In this document: in pieces, positions 36,877 to 56,883 of the stretch | Layout: every line of letters starts with the position of its first letter | How positions within the stretch are numbered: the first letter of the stretch is position 1 | Source: Halobacterium sp. CBA1132 | GTDB lineage: Archaea > Halobacteriota > Halobacteria > Halobacteriales > Halobacteriaceae | Direction of reading: 5' to 3' | Length of the DNA: 64,000 nt | Assembly: GCF_001485535.1 (NCBI RefSeq) | Contig: NZ_BCMZ01000001.1 | Span: forward strand, 1,674,001-1,738,000 | Program-made: the position numbers and the translations under genes | The notes under the pieces: model-generated | Database searches by the model: none | Told to the model about the DNA's origin: nothing | What the model saw: the letters and a program-made list of their open reading frames with translations, nothing else

Positions 36877-37470
36877 ATGGACGGGGCCACGTTCGAGGCT
36901 ATCCACAAGTACGGGGTCGTGCTGTCCGTGGTCGCCACCGCGCTCGCCGTCCTCGCATCCGTCGTGGGCGGGCCGATTGGCTCCGTCGCCCTCCTGTTCT
37001 TGGGGTGGGCGGGCCCGCTCGGCCTGTTCTACTTCGGGGGCGCATACCTCACCCACACCACCGCCTACGCGTCGGCATATCACGTCCTGGGCGAAGAACT
37101 CATGCGCGGTGTCGCGTGGTACTCTCTGAGCCTCATCGCGTGGTCGGTCGTCGCCAACCAAACCACCGGCTTTGCGACCTCACCGGGTGCCGTATTCGGG
37201 TTGCCCGCAGTGACAGCCCTCGGTATCACCCTCCTGATGGCCGCTACCAGATACGTGACAGGGAGCGACCTGAGAGTCGAGAGCGAGGGCGGGCAACTAC
37301 TCGTGGTGATTTCCGGCGGAATCGCCTTCGGGTTCCTCGCGCTCTTCCTCGTGCTAACTGGCCAAGCGGACTGGTGGCTTTTCGCGCTGTCCCTGCTCAG
37401 TCTTCCGGGTGGACTCGCGCTCCGCTGGGTTCTGAAGCAGCGCTATCCGGGAGTCCTCGGGGCAAATTAG
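36877..37470 (+). CDS. Membrane protein, unknown, at the edge of the accessory region
   Basis: The 197-residue protein starts MDGATFEAIHKYGVVLSVVA. About six hydrophobic helices cover most of the length, with one polar loop near 125-140. Third-position GC is weaker than in neighbouring core genes, suggesting more recent arrival. A TATA-like TTTAAC at 36848-36853 lies 24-29 nt upstream. No family recognised. Confidence 0.65.
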   Translation: MDGATFEAIHKYGVVLSVVATALAVLASVVGGPIGSVALLFLGWAGPLGLFYFGGAYLTHTTAYASAYHVLGEELMRGVAWYSLSLIAWSVVANQTTGFATSPGAVFGLPAVTALGITLLMAATRYVTGSDLRVESEGGQLLVVISGGIAFGFLALFLVLTGQADWWLFALSLLSLPGGLALRWVLKQRYPGVLGAN

Positions 37471-37600
37471 TCACGCCGAGTCACCCACCGCTAACCAGTA
37501 GTAGCCGAAGGAGGGAACGGCAGAGCACAGTTCACACACTCACACTGCACTCCGTCGCACTCGAATCGACTGCACGGACGAGAACAGCGTTGCTCCGTGG

Positions 37601-37669
37601 AATTTCGAGATGTGCGCCCACGACACTACCGGCCGACAATCTACCAGTAGGCTCGGTGGAGGTGAAACT
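37601..37669 (+). repeat. Array repeat, copy A
   Basis: This is the first of six same-orientation copies. It reads GAGATGTGCGCCCA, CGACACTACCGGCCGACAAT, then CTACCAGTAG and GCTCGGTGGA. Relative to copies B and E it has point changes in both the hairpin stem and the CTACTAGTAG palindrome. The left flank GTGGAATTTCGAG is shared with copy C. It lies 62 nt before the DUF433 gene. Confidence 0.85.
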
Positions 37670-37699
37670 ATCCGGTGAGCGACGAGTGACTGCCGAAAA

Positions 37700-37708
37700 G
37701 ATATAAAC
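37700..37708 (+). promoter_or_regulatory. TATA box of the DUF433/DUF5615 operon
   Basis: GATATAAAC lies 24-32 nt before the ATG at 37732, downstream of and separate from repeat copy A. The module therefore has its own promoter. Confidence 0.6.
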
Positions 37709-37731
37709 GAGAACGCGACTAACAGATTCGT

Positions 37732-38007
37732 ATGACCATTACCCGCGACGAGGGCGTCCTCGGGGGCGAACCCCGAATAGAGGGGACGAGAGTCGGCGTC
37801 CGACACGTCGCGGCAGGAGTTCTCGACGGCGACCGATCGCCACCACACGTCGCGGACCAACTCGACGTCTCTCTCTCCGAGGTCTACGAGGCACTCGCGT
37901 ACTACTACGCGCACGTCGAGGAGATGCGTGAATTCGAGCGCGAAAACGAGGCCGCCTTCGATCGGATTCACGAGTCCTCGCTGAAGCCGAAGGAAACGAT
38001 TCAGTGA
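37732..38007 (+). CDS. DUF433-family antitoxin
   Basis: The 91-residue protein starts MTITRDEGVLGGEPRIEGTR, then VGVRHVAAGVL, the standard DUF433 opening with the PxIxGTR motif. A winged-helix/HTH segment follows (HVADQLDVSLSEVYEALAYY). The C-tail is charged and probably binds the toxin. DUF433 genes are regularly paired with PIN-like DUF5615 genes, as here, where the stop overlaps the partner's GTG start by 4 nt. Confidence 0.9.
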   Translation: MTITRDEGVLGGEPRIEGTRVGVRHVAAGVLDGDRSPPHVADQLDVSLSEVYEALAYYYAHVEEMREFERENEAAFDRIHESSLKPKETIQ

Positions 38008-38372
38008 CGGGAACGCGGATTCTCCTAGACGAGCACGTCGGACGAGTGTTCGAGCGCGTGCTCAGTGAACGGGGTTACGACGTCGAGCAAGCGAAGGACG
38101 TGTTCGGCGAACTCACCGAGGACGCGGAGTTACTGGCGTGGTGTGGCGAGCACGGCGTCGCGCTGATGACGAACAACGCACGAGACTTCGAGGAGCTTCA
38201 CCGGGAGACCGACCACGCCGGGCTCCTGCTCTACTACGATCAGAACCGCCCCGACGAGGATCCGGAAGGCCTTGCACGAGTCGTGGACGAAGTGTTCAAC
38301 CAGTACAGAACGTCAGGCATCGAGAACGAAATTATCGATCTCGACGAGTGGTACGACTGGCTCCACGAGTGA
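38004..38372 (+). CDS. DUF5615-family PIN-like toxin
   Basis: The 122-residue protein starts with GTG. The Mut7-C/PIN-like core is visible: RILLDEHVGRVFERVLSERG (first acidic residue), ELTEDAELLAWCGEHGVALM, then TNNARDFEEL with the conserved N-x-x-D/F pattern. It is a probable ribonuclease neutralised by the preceding DUF433 protein. The frame is intact, unlike the other two toxins of the region. No ATG start is available, and the GTGA overlap fixes the start. Confidence 0.88.
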   Translation: MTGTRILLDEHVGRVFERVLSERGYDVEQAKDVFGELTEDAELLAWCGEHGVALMTNNARDFEELHRETDHAGLLLYYDQNRPDEDPEGLARVVDEVFNQYRTSGIENEIIDLDEWYDWLHE

Positions 38373-38424
38373 TCAGCGGCCAACAGTTCGATACCGGATT
38401 CTACATCGCTACCGCTTCTCGGTC

Positions 38425-38484
38425 TCGAAATGTACGCCCGCGACACTACCGGGCGACAATCTACTAGTAGGCTCGGTGAAAGTA
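38425..38484 (+). repeat. Array repeat, copy B (best copy)
   Basis: It reads TCGAAATGTACGCCCG, CGACACTACCGGGCGACAAT, CTACTAGTAG and GCTCGGTGAAAG. CGCCCG and CGGGCG can pair around a 9-nt loop, and CTACTAGTAG is a perfect 10-bp palindrome. It begins 52 nt after the DUF5615 stop. Confidence 0.88.
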
Positions 38485-38586
38485 AAGTCCGGCATGAGTG
38501 GCAGTGAAATAGCCAGCAAGTCAATCTGCGTATCGAGTACTTCCGACCGGCAAAATTAGATGGTCCACGACACAGTTGGCAGTTAT

Positions 38587-38829
38587 ATGAGTCTCCGTGG
38601 CCGATTGCGAGAGTGCCTTCTGCTCACAGTCGCAGTGCTCCTCTCCATCGGGGGAATTAGCCTACTGTTCATCGGAGCTTACTTCACCGGATTCGGATGG
38701 CAGGGTTTGAGTTCGATAGTCGTCGGTATCGGTCTTCTTACCGTCGGGCTGTTGATTCTGCTGCGACAAGACTCAGAGGTTTCCGCCCGCCTCGTCGGTT
38801 TTATCAAAGAGGTATTCATGAGCACTTGA
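38587..38829 (+). CDS. Small two-helix membrane protein in the array
   Basis: The 80-residue protein starts MSLRGRLRECLLLTVAVLLS, with helices at about 9-32 and 37-58 and a short charged tail ending EVFMST. An AAAATTAGA box at 38552-38560 lies 27-35 nt upstream, favouring this ATG over the in-frame ATG at 38560. Codon bias is weak. No partner gene is present between repeats B and C. It could be a solitary membrane toxin, an immunity protein or an orphan, and nothing decides. Confidence 0.6.
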   Translation: MSLRGRLRECLLLTVAVLLSIGGISLLFIGAYFTGFGWQGLSSIVVGIGLLTVGLLILLRQDSEVSARLVGFIKEVFMST

Positions 38830-38951
38830 CTCCTCAGAGTAACCGTACAGATCCGGTACCAGCACTCGCTATACTTAGCGATGCGTGAGTACATTTAGAT
38901 CCTATTCCGGCGACTTCTCGACACCTGAGCGGTCGAAGAGCCGTCTCTCCG

Positions 38952-39000
38952 GGGAATTTCGAGGTGTGCGTCCGAGACACTACCGGGCGACAATCTACTA
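38952..39000 (+). repeat. Array repeat, copy C (cut at the palindrome centre)
   Basis: It reads GGGAATTTCGAGGTGTGCG, TCCGAGACACTACCGGGCGA, then CAATCTACTA, where the match stops and unrelated ATGAATACG begins. The break falls at or within one base of the centre of CTACTAGTAG. The left flank matches copy A. Confidence 0.82.
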
Positions 39001-39059
39001 ATGAATACGTACTGAAGTACGGCAGTACATTCATTACGTCAGCACTTCAATCTCACAGT

Positions 39060-39434
39060 ATGCCCGTGAGCATCGACGAGTTCGAATCGGGGGAATTGCC
39101 GGAGGGGCCGAGCGTGCCCGAGCAGGTGATTACGTACCTACACATGCACCGGGACGCGGCGTTCACCCGGTCGGAGATAGCTACTGCCATCGGCGAGGAC
39201 CCGAACACGGTTGGCACCGCTCTCACGCGATTGAAAGAGCGTGACCTCGTCCGCCATCGAGGGCAGTACTGGGCGATCACGGAAGACGAACACCGGGTCG
39301 CCGCCGCCTACGACCTCCACGACGTGAGCGAACGACTCGACGAAGCCGACGGCGGAATCGACTCGGGGGACTGGGACGCCGTCGCCCCCGACCAACTGCA
39401 TCCGAGCGAGCAGGATTCAAGTGAGGGCGAGTAA
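39060..39434 (+). CDS. Winged-helix antitoxin-like protein (partner of MazF/PemK remnant)
   Basis: The 124-residue protein starts MPVSIDEFESGELPEGPSVP. Residues about 20-80 form a winged helix (VITYLHMHRDAAFTRSEIAT, then AIGEDPNTVGTALTRLKERD and a WAITEDE wing). An acidic C-tail follows (WDAVAPDQLHPSEQDSSEGE) that could mask the toxin. In haloarchaea such MarR-like genes precede mazF/pemK genes. The toxin gene begins 3 nt after this stop but is broken. Confidence 0.8.
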   Translation: MPVSIDEFESGELPEGPSVPEQVITYLHMHRDAAFTRSEIATAIGEDPNTVGTALTRLKERDLVRHRGQYWAITEDEHRVAAAYDLHDVSERLDEADGGIDSGDWDAVAPDQLHPSEQDSSEGE

Positions 39435-39437
39435 TCG

Positions 39438-39766
39438 ATGGAGCCGGAACGCGGCGATGTCGTCAGGAGTACCGACCCGTTCAAACTCGGCACTGATCGC
39501 CAGCGACCGTGGCTCGTCGTGAACAACAGCTCCCACCCGTTCGCCGACGAGCAACACGTCGCGGTCGCTATCTCGACGAAGGAATACGACGACTCGCTTC
39601 GTCTCGGGGAGGACGTCTGGGAAACGGGCGGTGTTCCATGAGAGTCGTTCCTCTCGCCGTGGGCGATCCACTCGCCCGGAGCGAAGACCTCGTCGCGTGG
39701 CAGGGCCGAGTTACTGACGAATTCGTGGATCGCGTCGTAGACTCACTGGAGACGTATCTGCGGTAG
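39438..39766 (+). pseudogene. Degraded MazF/PemK-family toxin gene
   Basis: The first 67 codons (MEPERGDVVRSTDPFKLGTD, then RQRPWLVVNNSSHPFADEQH) read as a MazF/PemK toxin up to WETGGVP, where TGA at 39639-39641 interrupts. The same frame continues after the stop as ESFLSPWAIHS, the expected family motif, so the stop replaces a sense codon. The remainder (RSEDLVAWQGRVTDEFVDRV, then VDSLETYLR) lies in another frame, which requires a net one-base loss near 39675. The gene therefore carries two independent lesions. Confidence 0.85.
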
Positions 39767-39767
39767 T

Positions 39768-39826
39768 TCGAAAGTGTACGCCCGCGACACTACCGGCCGA
39801 CAATCTACTAGTAGGGACAGTGAAGG
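39768..39826 (+). repeat. Array repeat, copy D
   Basis: It reads TCGAAAGTGTACGCCCG, CGACACTACCGGCCGACAAT, CTACTAGTAG, then GGACAGTGAAGG. The palindrome is intact and one stem position is changed. It starts immediately after the stop of the broken MazF gene. Confidence 0.87.
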
Positions 39827-39878
39827 AGGAGCAGGCCGCTCAACACACGGAAGTTCCCGCCCGGAAGAGATGCAACGA

Positions 39879-40188
39879 CTACTCGTCGGCCTCGGAGAGC
39901 ACTTGTGCGTACAGGTCGTCGGAGATCCAGAACCCGGCTTCGCGGAGGGGTTCGTGGAAGATTTCGACGAACAGGTCCGAACGCTCCACCTCGACTAAGC
40001 GCAGAAATTCGTCGTCACGCAACTCCCGAAGTCCCTCTAATCCATCCCCCCGTCGGTGAGTTCACTCCATACCTGGCGCGGAATCGTGGTTTCGGAGAAC
40101 TGTGACTGGAGGAGGTCGAGCCGTTCGATGAGCGCGAGATTCAGCAGTGGGGACGTATCCGAGACCACGAGCTTACTATTCGGCATAC
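39879..40188 (-). pseudogene. DUF3368 PIN-like toxin, frameshifted at a homopolymer
   Basis: From the ATG at 40188 the frame reads MPNSKLVVSDTSPLLNLALI, then ERLDLLQSQFSETTIPRQVW and SELTDGG, and stops at a TAG just after a run of six G (C6 on the plus strand, 40046-40051). One base more in the run would restore GDGLEGLRELRDDEFLRLVE, then FHEPLREAGFWISDDLYAQV and LSEADE to the stop at 39879. SDTSPLLNL is the PIN-fold acidic motif. It overlaps the UPF0175 stop, the usual pairing. This could be a true defect, slippage-based switching or an assembly error. Confidence 0.82.
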
Positions 40189-54182: not shown

Positions 54183-54350
54183 CGCGGGGAGCTACCCGCT
54201 CTGCCAGCAAAAGTCCCGCCCTTCGCGGGACGCGTGGAAGAATCCCCCGGACGCACCCCGAAGCGGGCGTTTCGCGGTGTCTGCGTCGGCCGAGCCGCTT
54301 TCATACGAGTAATTTCGGTATATTTTATCTCGGTTATCTTCAAATAGATT

Positions 54351-54358
54351 GAATATAC
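54351..54358 (+). promoter_or_regulatory. TATA box for the 44-residue membrane peptide gene
   Basis: GAATATAC lies 26-33 nt before the ATG at 54384, at the end of a roughly 60-bp AT-rich island (54300-54358) that stands out sharply in this genome. Confidence 0.6.
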
Positions 54359-54383
54359 GGGCGGCGTACGGTGTAGGTAGACG

Positions 54384-54518
54384 ATGTCAGACAGCAAGTT
54401 CACGCAGTTCCTCGAGGACAACCCCCGGATGATCGGCGTGCTGTTCAGCCTAATGGTGTTCCTGTCGACGACCGGCGCCGCGGCGGCGGCGAACGCGACG
54501 ACCAACCCCGGCCCCTAG
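54384..54518 (+). CDS. 44-residue single-helix membrane peptide (DUF7503-like)
   Basis: The sequence is MSDSKFTQFLEDNPRMIGVL followed by FSLMVFLSTTGAAAAANATT and NPGP. A charged N-terminus precedes one hydrophobic helix (about 16-36) and a short polar tail. Haloarchaea carry many such tiny proteins with the FTQFLxDNPRMIGVLFSL pattern. The family name is from memory and no function is known. Its TAG overlaps the stop of the convergent CHAT protease gene by 4 nt. Confidence 0.78.
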   Translation: MSDSKFTQFLEDNPRMIGVLFSLMVFLSTTGAAAAANATTNPGP

Positions 54519-56596
54519 TCAAGTTCGTTCTCCAGCAGTTTGTCGCTCCACGTGAGTTCTCCATCGAACAGTACCGGGACGACTCCGTGGTTGAAGAAAT
54601 CGCGTAACTTAGTTGTAGACACCTCAAACGTGTCGATGACGCCGGAATTGAGGTAGCGCGTAGCGTTCCCGTCGATATACGGCGTCAGAATTGACCCAAT
54701 CGAACATTGCGACGTCGGGTAGCCCCGAATCTGTACCTCGTACCCGTCTTCGATTTCGCTCAGCGTCACCGACAACGGAGTTCCCTGCTGGCTCTGCACC
54801 AACTGGAGCGTGCCGTCGCCGATGGTGATGTACTTGTTCCCGAACAGCGTCACGTGCCGCGCGACCGACAGCCCCGCCTGCAGCGTGAAGCCGTTGTTCA
54901 GCAGGCGGGCGAGCGCGCGACCGATGCGGACCGCGGGGTCGTTGCTGATGTTCGCGAGCGTGACGATGCCGCCGTAGCTCCCGCGTTCGACGAGCGCGTC
55001 GCCCTGCTCGTAGGACTTGCAGGCGTTCAATAGGAACGCGTCGACGTTCACTTCGTCCAGCGTTCGCGCGTCGAACATGCCGTCCGAGCACTGGAAGCCG
55101 CGCTCGTCGACGTGCCCGATGTAGTGCAGGAAGTCGGTGTCCGTCCGCAGGACGTCCGCGAGTTCCGCGCCGGTGAGGTCGTAGTGGACCGTGATGTCGA
55201 ACTCGAAGATGTCCCGCGTCCCGTAGAACTCCTCTACGATGTCCTCCTCGCTCATTTCGTCCTCGTTGCAGACGATGTCGATGCTGATGGAGTGTTGGTC
55301 GCGGACCGGACGGTTCAGTCGGCGCAGGTACGACTCCACTCGGGTCTTGCTGGCGCCGAGCGGGAACCCCTCGGCGATCCACGCGTGCTCGATGGCGTCC
55401 GTCTCGTCGGGCTTGACGACGTTCGACCAGTCGGTCGCCGACTCCCCGCCGGAGGTGCTCCGGACGGTCGCACTGTCGGCCCGATAGAACTCGGTCAGCG
55501 CGTCTGGTTCGTCGTGGACGTCCGGTTCCTCGTCGTCCTCGGGGATGCGGACCGTCGCGAGTTCGTTCGCGACGAACGGAATCGCCGCCACGTGGTCGGG
55601 GTCCGGGTCGATGTCGGCGGTGAGCTTCCACTGCGGGAGGTGAGGTTCCGTGAGTTCGTAGGGAACGTCGAGGTACGCCCGGAGTCGCTGTGCGAACGAC
55701 GCGTCGTAGACGGCCGCCGGGTCGAACCCGAGGTCGTCCTCGACGACGTTGCGCTCGTGGAGGTTCACCGGGTAGAACCCCTCGGTGCGGGTGACGCAGT
55801 CGAGGAAGAAGACGTGCTTGAGCAGCGCCGACACCTCGGCCTCGAAGCCGCGCTCCGTGTCGAGGTCGTAGCGGGCGCCCGCGACGTCGAGTACGCGTCT
55901 CTCGCCCGGGACGACATCCGCGCCGAGGTAGTACGCCAGCGAACTCACGCGAAACAGGTCGCCGTAGTCGCGCGGAATCTCGATTGTGACGCCGGTCTCG
56001 GGGCGTTCGAACGCGTCGGGGGCGTCGAAACTGTCGCCGCGCTCGATGAGCGGCGGGTGGCCGCGGAGCGACGGGAACGACCGCTCGGGGGACGTCGTCT
56101 TGAGCGCCGAACTACCGAGCGCGACCGCACGCATCGCGTCCTCGACGTCGTCGCCAATGGTGATGGTACCGGCGGGCGACTCGTGGAGCGACCGCACGCC
56201 GAGGCCGAGCGTCGTCTCGTCCTCGAAGTCGAGGTGCGTCGCGTTCTCCGAACGCCGAACTGTCAGGGCGCTCTCGGCGACAATCTGGAGTTTCATCGGG
56301 CCGAGCGGCAGGTCCAGCGAGTACCACCCCGAGGGGTACTCCGTGTACTGTTGGTTGACGGACTCGCCGACCATCGTCTCGGTCTCGTCCCAGCGGAAGA
56401 CGTTCACCAGTCGCGGGATTTCGAGACTCCCGACGGTGACGGTGACCGCGCTGTCCACGGGGAGGACGAACTGGTCGGTGCTCGTTTCGACGGGGTCGAC
56501 CACGCGGTCCGTGTACAACTCGAACTGCGCGTTCTCGATGGGGTCGCGCACGAGGAGGCCGTCCGGGTCGACCAGCGAGTCGAACTCGGGCCTCAT
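54515..56596 (-). CDS. CHAT-domain caspase-like protease
   Basis: The 693-residue protein has no transmembrane segment. Residues 1-430 form a beta-rich N-terminal region of unknown fold. Residues about 435-690 are a CHAT domain, with the catalytic His H495 in FLHYIGHVDERG and catalytic Cys C526 in FLLNACKSYEQGDALVERGS, followed by GGIVTLANI. CHAT proteases in bacteria act in death or defence pathways, including cleavage of gasdermins. Its partners here are a convergent membrane peptide gene and an overlapping upstream small frame. Confidence 0.88.
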   Translation of the reverse strand: MRPEFDSLVDPDGLLVRDPIENAQFELYTDRVVDPVETSTDQFVLPVDSAVTVTVGSLEIPRLVNVFRWDETETMVGESVNQQYTEYPSGWYSLDLPLGPMKLQIVAESALTVRRSENATHLDFEDETTLGLGVRSLHESPAGTITIGDDVEDAMRAVALGSSALKTTSPERSFPSLRGHPPLIERGDSFDAPDAFERPETGVTIEIPRDYGDLFRVSSLAYYLGADVVPGERRVLDVAGARYDLDTERGFEAEVSALLKHVFFLDCVTRTEGFYPVNLHERNVVEDDLGFDPAAVYDASFAQRLRAYLDVPYELTEPHLPQWKLTADIDPDPDHVAAIPFVANELATVRIPEDDEEPDVHDEPDALTEFYRADSATVRSTSGGESATDWSNVVKPDETDAIEHAWIAEGFPLGASKTRVESYLRRLNRPVRDQHSISIDIVCNEDEMSEEDIVEEFYGTRDIFEFDITVHYDLTGAELADVLRTDTDFLHYIGHVDERGFQCSDGMFDARTLDEVNVDAFLLNACKSYEQGDALVERGSYGGIVTLANISNDPAVRIGRALARLLNNGFTLQAGLSVARHVTLFGNKYITIGDGTLQLVQSQQGTPLSVTLSEIEDGYEVQIRGYPTSQCSIGSILTPYIDGNATRYLNSGVIDTFEVSTTKLRDFFNHGVVPVLFDGELTWSDKLLENELD

Positions 56597-56883
56597 CGCG
56601 TGCCCCGTGCGTGTTGTTGCCGGCGACGCGGCGTCCGGGTCGCGCGCTCGTTCGGCGAGCGCTCGAACGGCGTCGCCGGTCGAATCGCGTCGCGGTTGGC
56701 GAAGTAGCGTGGCATGGCGCTGGTGGCGCGTTGCAGTACCTGACGTTCGCGGTCACGACGCTTACGCTGTCCGGTGGCGTGAACTGCTGGCAACGCGGCC
56801 CCTCGACTGCGCGTGCTGTACTCGACTGATACGTCAACGAGCGCCCACAGCTCGTCGCACGACGACACCGCCACCCTCGGCAT
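56593..56883 (-). CDS. Possible small basic protein coupled to the CHAT gene
   Basis: A 96-residue frame starts MPRVAVSSCDELWALVDVSV and ends in an Arg-rich tail (FERSPNERATRTPRRRQQHA). Its stop overlaps the CHAT ATG (ATGA), and a TATA-like box lies 25-33 nt before its ATG, the leaderless layout. Third-position GC is moderately high. A shorter version from the ATG at 56715 (MPRYFANRDAIRPATPFERS) is also possible. No homologue is known to me, so it may be just the CHAT leader. Confidence 0.42.
   Translation of the reverse strand: MPRVAVSSCDELWALVDVSVEYSTRSRGAALPAVHATGQRKRRDRERQVLQRATSAMPRYFANRDAIRPATPFERSPNERATRTPRRRQQHARGTR

Follow-up and report, generated by a model that had tools for sequence, protein, structure and literature searches.

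A caspase-fold CHAT protease and its convergent Gly-Pro-ended micropeptide as a candidate protease-ligand module in haloarchaea

The 64,000-nucleotide stretch of Halobacterium sp. CBA1132 DNA analysed here (hereafter the window) carries a CHAT protease gene and a convergent gene for a micropeptide ending in Gly-Pro (GP). The two almost certainly form one functional unit in almost all haloarchaea, because their tail-to-tail pairing is near-universal among the genomes compared and the peptide was found nowhere else. We tentatively read protease and micropeptide as one module and the GP tail as a putative ligand of the CHAT protease, either an inhibitor or an activator, and hold this reading at somewhat short of even confidence.

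Results

Organization of the locus

Both genes lie where the original prediction placed them, the one for the peptide at 54384-54518 and the one for CHAT at 54515-56596, and their stop codons overlap (CTAG at 54515-54518). The features of the locus are listed below.

54340..54359, + strand: BRE/TATA-like promoter of the peptide gene, tcaaatagattgaatatacg, ~25-45 nt 5' of the ATG
54384..54518, + strand: DUF7503 micropeptide gene, convergent with CHAT; 44 aa, MSDSKFTQFLEDNPRMIGVLFSLMVFLSTTGAAAAANATTNPGP; PF24335, 69.4 bits
54420..54488, + strand: [HN]P[RK] motif and single transmembrane or signal-sequence-like helix of the peptide, from homologue comparison
54489..54515, + strand: C-terminal nine-residue tail of the peptide, a near-neutral uncharged spacer and then the invariant Gly-Pro
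54510-54515, + strand: GP codons of the peptide; codon choice free across homologues
54515..54518, no strand: stop-codon overlap of the DUF7503 and CHAT genes, 4 nt, CTAG, read from the sequence
54515..56596, - strand: CHAT (clan CD, caspase-fold) protease gene, 693 aa, assigned from homologues, a model of pLDDT 90 and fold matches
54797..55303, - strand: predicted CHAT catalytic subdomain, residues 432-600, from the SAVED-CHAT match (Z 15.5 over 432-600)
55019-55021, - strand: CHAT Cys526 codon, catalytic dyad
55112-55114, - strand: CHAT His495 codon, catalytic dyad
55643..56596, - strand: CHAT N-terminal region, residues 1-318, modelled as a beta-sandwich (1-138) and an alpha/beta part, pLDDT 95.6

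The small frame expected over the CHAT start does exist (56593-56883, - strand, 96 aa), but it is weakly conserved and lies outside the conserved unit. In a few Halobacterium species the frame stays open and begins in a broadly comparable way; its first ~20 residues are alike in three close species and divergent after that, and it may represent either a small gene or a leader that has been conserved. The neighbourhood did not yield the defence genes for which a check had been proposed: the flanks encode a biotin ligase, a universal stress protein, a biotin carboxylase and other housekeeping proteins, no defence or CRISPR-effector neighbour of the window CHAT was found (PADLOC gave weak HTH/HD cross-hits only), and the family is near-ubiquitous rather than sporadic. 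Elsewhere in the window, positions 37001-40000 have a GC content of ~0.585 against 0.69 around them and may be a foreign stretch. The genome as a whole holds one DUF7503 copy and four CHAT paralogues. Tandem CHAT paralogues without a peptide lie at C1:2250450-2254446 (L003/L004 and L242), and the second CHAT of this pair appears truncated or frame-broken near the catalytic Cys.

Predicted caspase fold and catalytic dyad of the CHAT protein

The 693-residue protein has no Pfam match at E<=1 and none in NCBIfam, PADLOC or PDB sequences, and its paralogues and relatives score 20.2-22.9 bits with the PF12770 CHAT profile, just under the 24-bit cut-off. Its AlphaFold model was built on a 90-sequence alignment and has a mean pLDDT of 90. 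The catalytic part of the model matches gingipain R (Z 19.2) and separase (Z 17.6 over 218 residues), and the model further matches SAVED-CHAT (Z 15.5, rmsd 2.8, 167 residues, 432-600) and Csx29/TPR-CHAT (Z ~13), a shared fold that bears out the proposed caspase-like protease. His495 and Cys526, which the original prediction had noted as kept, form a dyad conserved among homologues, with HYIGH(495) and LNAC(526) at a conservation of at least 90%. As modelled, the window protein is a caspase-fold CHAT protease with an intact dyad, and proteolysis is its predicted activity. The sensor earlier assigned to the N-terminal 430 residues was drawn too wide, as the gingipain/separase-like match begins at about residue 322. 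For residues 1-318, which may still hold a sensor fold, no known one was recovered; residues 1-138 are modelled as a beta-sandwich, and its structural matches are at background level (best Z 7.6).

The dyad is intact in all 152 of the 152 peptide-paired CHATs. Dead CHATs, in which the His-Cys dyad is lost, comprise a clade of 11 and two more, all without a peptide; loci with His and/or Cys lost and no peptide include L118-L124, L126 and L151, together with L125 and L127. That peptides apparently occur only where the CHAT is catalytically intact is a suggestive pattern and falls short of proof, because the co-loss of peptide and catalysis corresponds to about two independent losses on the tree of 196 CHATs, whose deep branches are approximate because it was made with FastTree only.

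Obligate pairing of the peptide with CHAT

The survey of DUF7503 and CHAT covered 76 haloarchaeal genera, each represented by a single genome. DUF7503 is convergent to a CHAT homologue in 99 of 99 places and was not found away from CHAT in this census; the match-to-match gap has a median of 29 bp and a range of 2-879. The peptide is accordingly not equally common away from CHAT genes, and the proposal that protease and peptide are one unit is upheld by a pairing that is obligate. Chance adjacency is ruled out by the same 99/99 count. Over 130 pairs, the stop-to-stop distance has a median of 0, with -4 the commonest value (40/130). Comparison of the loci thus shows both the obligate pairing and a fixed convergent layout.

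Within the 76-genus set, CHAT places equal or outnumber DUF7503 places in every genome with DUF7503, and every DUF7503 is matched by a separate CHAT, with the exception of a tandem peptide duplication in one genome (G012), where two DUF7503 copies of identical protein sequence stand beside one CHAT (L039). Across 292 Halobacteria genomes, DUF7503 was found in 250 and CHAT homologues in 271. Besides CHAT and DUF7504, no gene is common to more than 14 of 81 loci. CHAT homologues are carried by 25 haloarchaeal plasmids. A viral or phage origin was rejected, as CHAT has no match in phage records and no convincing viral structure match. Several active CHATs have no detectable partner, including paralogues in the window's genome; neither by eye nor by the GP rule was a partner seen for the methanogen CHAT homologues or for three paralogues of that genome. 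Distant CHAT homologues from another family of the phylum (L238, L239, L240 and L241; 270-318 bits) likewise have no visible GP partner.

Conserved architecture of the DUF7503 peptide

DUF7503 (PF24335) is the only Pfam match of the window peptide, at 69.4 bits against a cut-off of 27 and over positions 1-42 of 42. The C-terminal GP is present in 122 of 130 homologues, and the other eight end in TID (three), GI (two) or GP plus 3-5 residues (three). GP codons and stop codons vary freely among the genes, and therefore the constraint acts on the protein; a DNA-level cause of GP, such as a terminator or the overlap, is ruled out by the same variation. In Halobacterium, Halorubrum and Haloferax, pN/pS is 0.13-0.28 for the body of the peptide, 0.50-0.94 for the six-residue spacer and 0.00 for GP. 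Sequence comparison thus shows a GP fixed at the protein level behind six almost neutral residues. The spacer keeps a nearly constant length though its sequence changes, the distance from the invariant Pro to the end being 31 residues in 94 of 121 peptides, and the tail is free of charged residues in 101/121.

Ahead of the tail, the Pro of the [HN]P[RK] motif is invariant (121/121) and an AxA-like site is present in 120/121. Lys or Arg stands in front of the helix in all 121 peptides and behind it in 11, so that an N-in/C-out topology is expected, as the charge pattern suggests for the helical forms. An AT-rich BRE/TATA-like element occurs 5' of the peptide genes in the same register in many genera; by this comparison, the peptide gene has a separate promoter-like element of its own.

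A wider family of GP-ended partners

A PF24335 match is absent beside 104 of the 202 census CHAT places. Reading the bases 3' of such CHAT stops revealed other convergent micropeptides ending in GP, namely single-helix peptides, helix-free peptides ending S[ST]YxGP (L096, L098, L101-L104, L117 and L137) and tandem-repeat proteins. Of 68 CHATs that have no PF24335 partner, 22 have a convergent frame that ends exactly in GP and lies within -30..+170 nt of the stop. Among the convergent frames near these stops, 22 of 184 end exactly in GP, versus 147 of 29,297 (0.5%) in the background; the nominal p~2e-23 of this comparison is overstated because the rows are related.

The tandem-tail proteins, encoded 3' of CHAT on the opposite strand, have lost the helix and carry 4-13 tail copies at L055, L056, L057 and L061. 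These partners, from genus g44, keep the start MSExDSGTVA and repeat the tail 4-13 times as (ADGNGGGISGPYT)n; a Haloplanus contig of the same clade (L179) has two tail copies and no helix. Comparison within this lineage shows helix loss with tail amplification. The copy number (2-13) varies between species. In Haladaptatus or its genus (L128, L174, L186), a short frame convergent with CHAT ends in RIKxGPFR, at -8 relative to the CHAT stop; it may be a further partner of the GP type, extended by 2 residues. Judged across these sequences, the constant part of the partner is the C-terminal tail ending in -GP and not the membrane helix, because some partners without a transmembrane segment still end in Gly-Pro.

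DUF7504 (PF24336) is encoded by an extra gene that immediately precedes CHAT in the same orientation and is present at 60 of 196 CHAT loci, about a third, and at 49 of the 129 with a DUF7503 partner; one example (L156, 6292-6993, + strand) scores 187 bits with PF24336. The window's locus lacks DUF7504, and its genome has 13 DUF7504 matches elsewhere.

Discussion

The GP tail as a possible ligand of the protease

Since partners of an intact protease can dispense with the helix and multiply the tail, the GP tail is the leading candidate for the part of the peptide that does the work. Its C-terminal dipeptide is free and absolutely constrained, and the spacer ahead of it is near-neutral but fixed in length. 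This arrangement resembles a docking end more than a site of cleavage, and we therefore favour the protease-ligand reading, with reservations. The CHAT protease would read the tail as a regulatory ligand, which may be a product-like or pseudosubstrate inhibitor, in the manner of securin, or an activator. The hydrophobic N-terminal half of the peptide would position or export the tail, and a change in tail supply or location would change the protease activity and thereby the cutting of its targets. Tests of covariation between tail and protease residues gave nothing above chance. A weak point is that, in the helical forms, the distribution of charges would place the tail outside the cell, where a cytosolic CHAT could not meet it unless the peptide were re-imported or not inserted.

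Securin is a pseudosubstrate inhibitor of separase, a clan CD protease. The haloarchaeal pair resembles separase and securin in the modelled catalytic fold and in the small dedicated partner. It differs in that the CHAT is prokaryotic, a single 693-residue chain with a different N-terminus, and in that its partner is a 44-residue helix plus tail for which inhibition is putative, by analogy.

Alternative readings

An unlikely but serious alternative is a gasdermin-like effector, the role originally proposed, in which a triggered CHAT would cut the peptide beside the helix and the freed membrane peptide would damage the membrane. Most peptides do have one transmembrane helix with the conserved [HN]P[RK] just ahead, the closest folds of the CHAT include the Arg/Lys-specific gingipains and separase, and peptides occur only beside catalytically intact CHATs. 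As a general rule, cleavage-activated membrane attack is nevertheless not supported, as two classes without a helix, the tandem-tail and STYGP forms, retain the GP tail and an active-type CHAT; it could apply to the helical forms. The invariance of GP is left without explanation, no internal cleavage motif common to all peptide classes was seen, and 44 residues are much too few for a gasdermin.

CHAT protease-effector systems include bacterial gasdermin-CHAT, the Craspase TPR-CHAT/Csx29 with Csx30, and SAVED-CHAT. The haloarchaeal pair shares with them the CHAT/caspase fold (Z 13-15.5), the His-Cys dyad and a dedicated neighbour protein. Unlike them, its CHAT shows no TPR, SAVED or gasdermin part and no CRISPR or defence neighbours, and its partner is tiny, convergent, defined by a C-terminal GP and near-ubiquitous across the class. 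Unlike the partner in gasdermin-CHAT, the window peptide is no gasdermin pore-former, consisting of one helix and a short tail.

We give a slightly lower, and still small, probability to peptide signalling, in which DUF7503 would be a pheromone precursor from which signal peptidase frees the ~nine-residue GP tail, to be re-imported and sensed by CHAT as Rgg senses SHP; phage arbitrium AimP is a further comparable system. The body of the peptide is signal-sequence-like, with the AxA-like site and the N-in/C-out charge pattern, and the tail combines a fixed length, a fast-changing interior and a fixed C-terminus; tandem tails recall multi-copy pheromone precursors. The layout has a close precedent in SHP/Rgg group III, where shp is found downstream of rgg in convergent orientation (PMC3679016); the mature SHP consists of the last 8-9 residues of its precursor, as in DILIIVGG (PMC3679016). 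The two systems are alike in the tiny precursor, its hydrophobic N-terminal part, the short tail with conserved last residues and the gene order. However, the receptor there is a transcription regulator (RRNPP, HTH-TPR), whereas the CHAT is by its model a caspase-fold protease and not an RRNPP receptor; export and import remain putative, suggested by the AxA-like site, and an export signal is missing from the tandem and STYGP forms. In addition, the spacer evolves near-neutrally rather than by diversification, and no importer or processing gene is linked.

It is improbable that the hydrophobic peptide is a toxin whose level the CHAT protease keeps low. Such control would accord with the obligate pairing, the lack of a peptide beside dead CHATs and the antisense control that a convergent overlap permits, but helix-free partners would make poor membrane toxins, many active CHATs have no peptide, and a near-neutral spacer with a fixed end is left without explanation. 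Simple proximity, or convergent antisense control of proteins that do not interact, which the original prediction allowed, is very improbable and close to refuted by the 99/99 census: stops frequently overlap (40/130 at -4), yet orientation and pairing persist over spacings of up to 879 bp and GP is fixed at the protein level.

Novelty and implications

The components were known before only as CHAT and as domains of unknown function, Pfam listing DUF7503 and DUF7504 merely in that way. In the literature searched, no paper names DUF7503, links DUF7503 or DUF7504 to CHAT, or joins "CHAT domain" with Haloferax volcanii. Three features appear to be undescribed: the pairing of CHAT with its peptide, the broader family of GP-ended peptides and the form with tandem tails. 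The pair gives DUF7503 and DUF7504 their first function-linked context.

H. volcanii has strong caspase-like activity without an identified gene (PMC3615174). Haloferax species carry the caspase-fold CHAT family, DUF7503 and DUF7504 both occur in H. volcanii itself, and the CHAT family is a natural and concrete candidate for this gene-less activity. More speculatively, and rather doubtfully at present, the GP-ended tail, delivered on a ~44-residue precursor or in tandem copies, would be the dedicated ligand of a caspase-like protease in a class-wide haloarchaeal signalling or restraint system, possibly the source of haloarchaeal caspase activity. A tail acting as a signalling ligand, if true, would be a new kind beyond the CHAT protease-plus-partner systems, and archaeal caspase-fold proteases with dedicated tiny partners would be added to the known range of prokaryotic proteases that act in cell death and stress.
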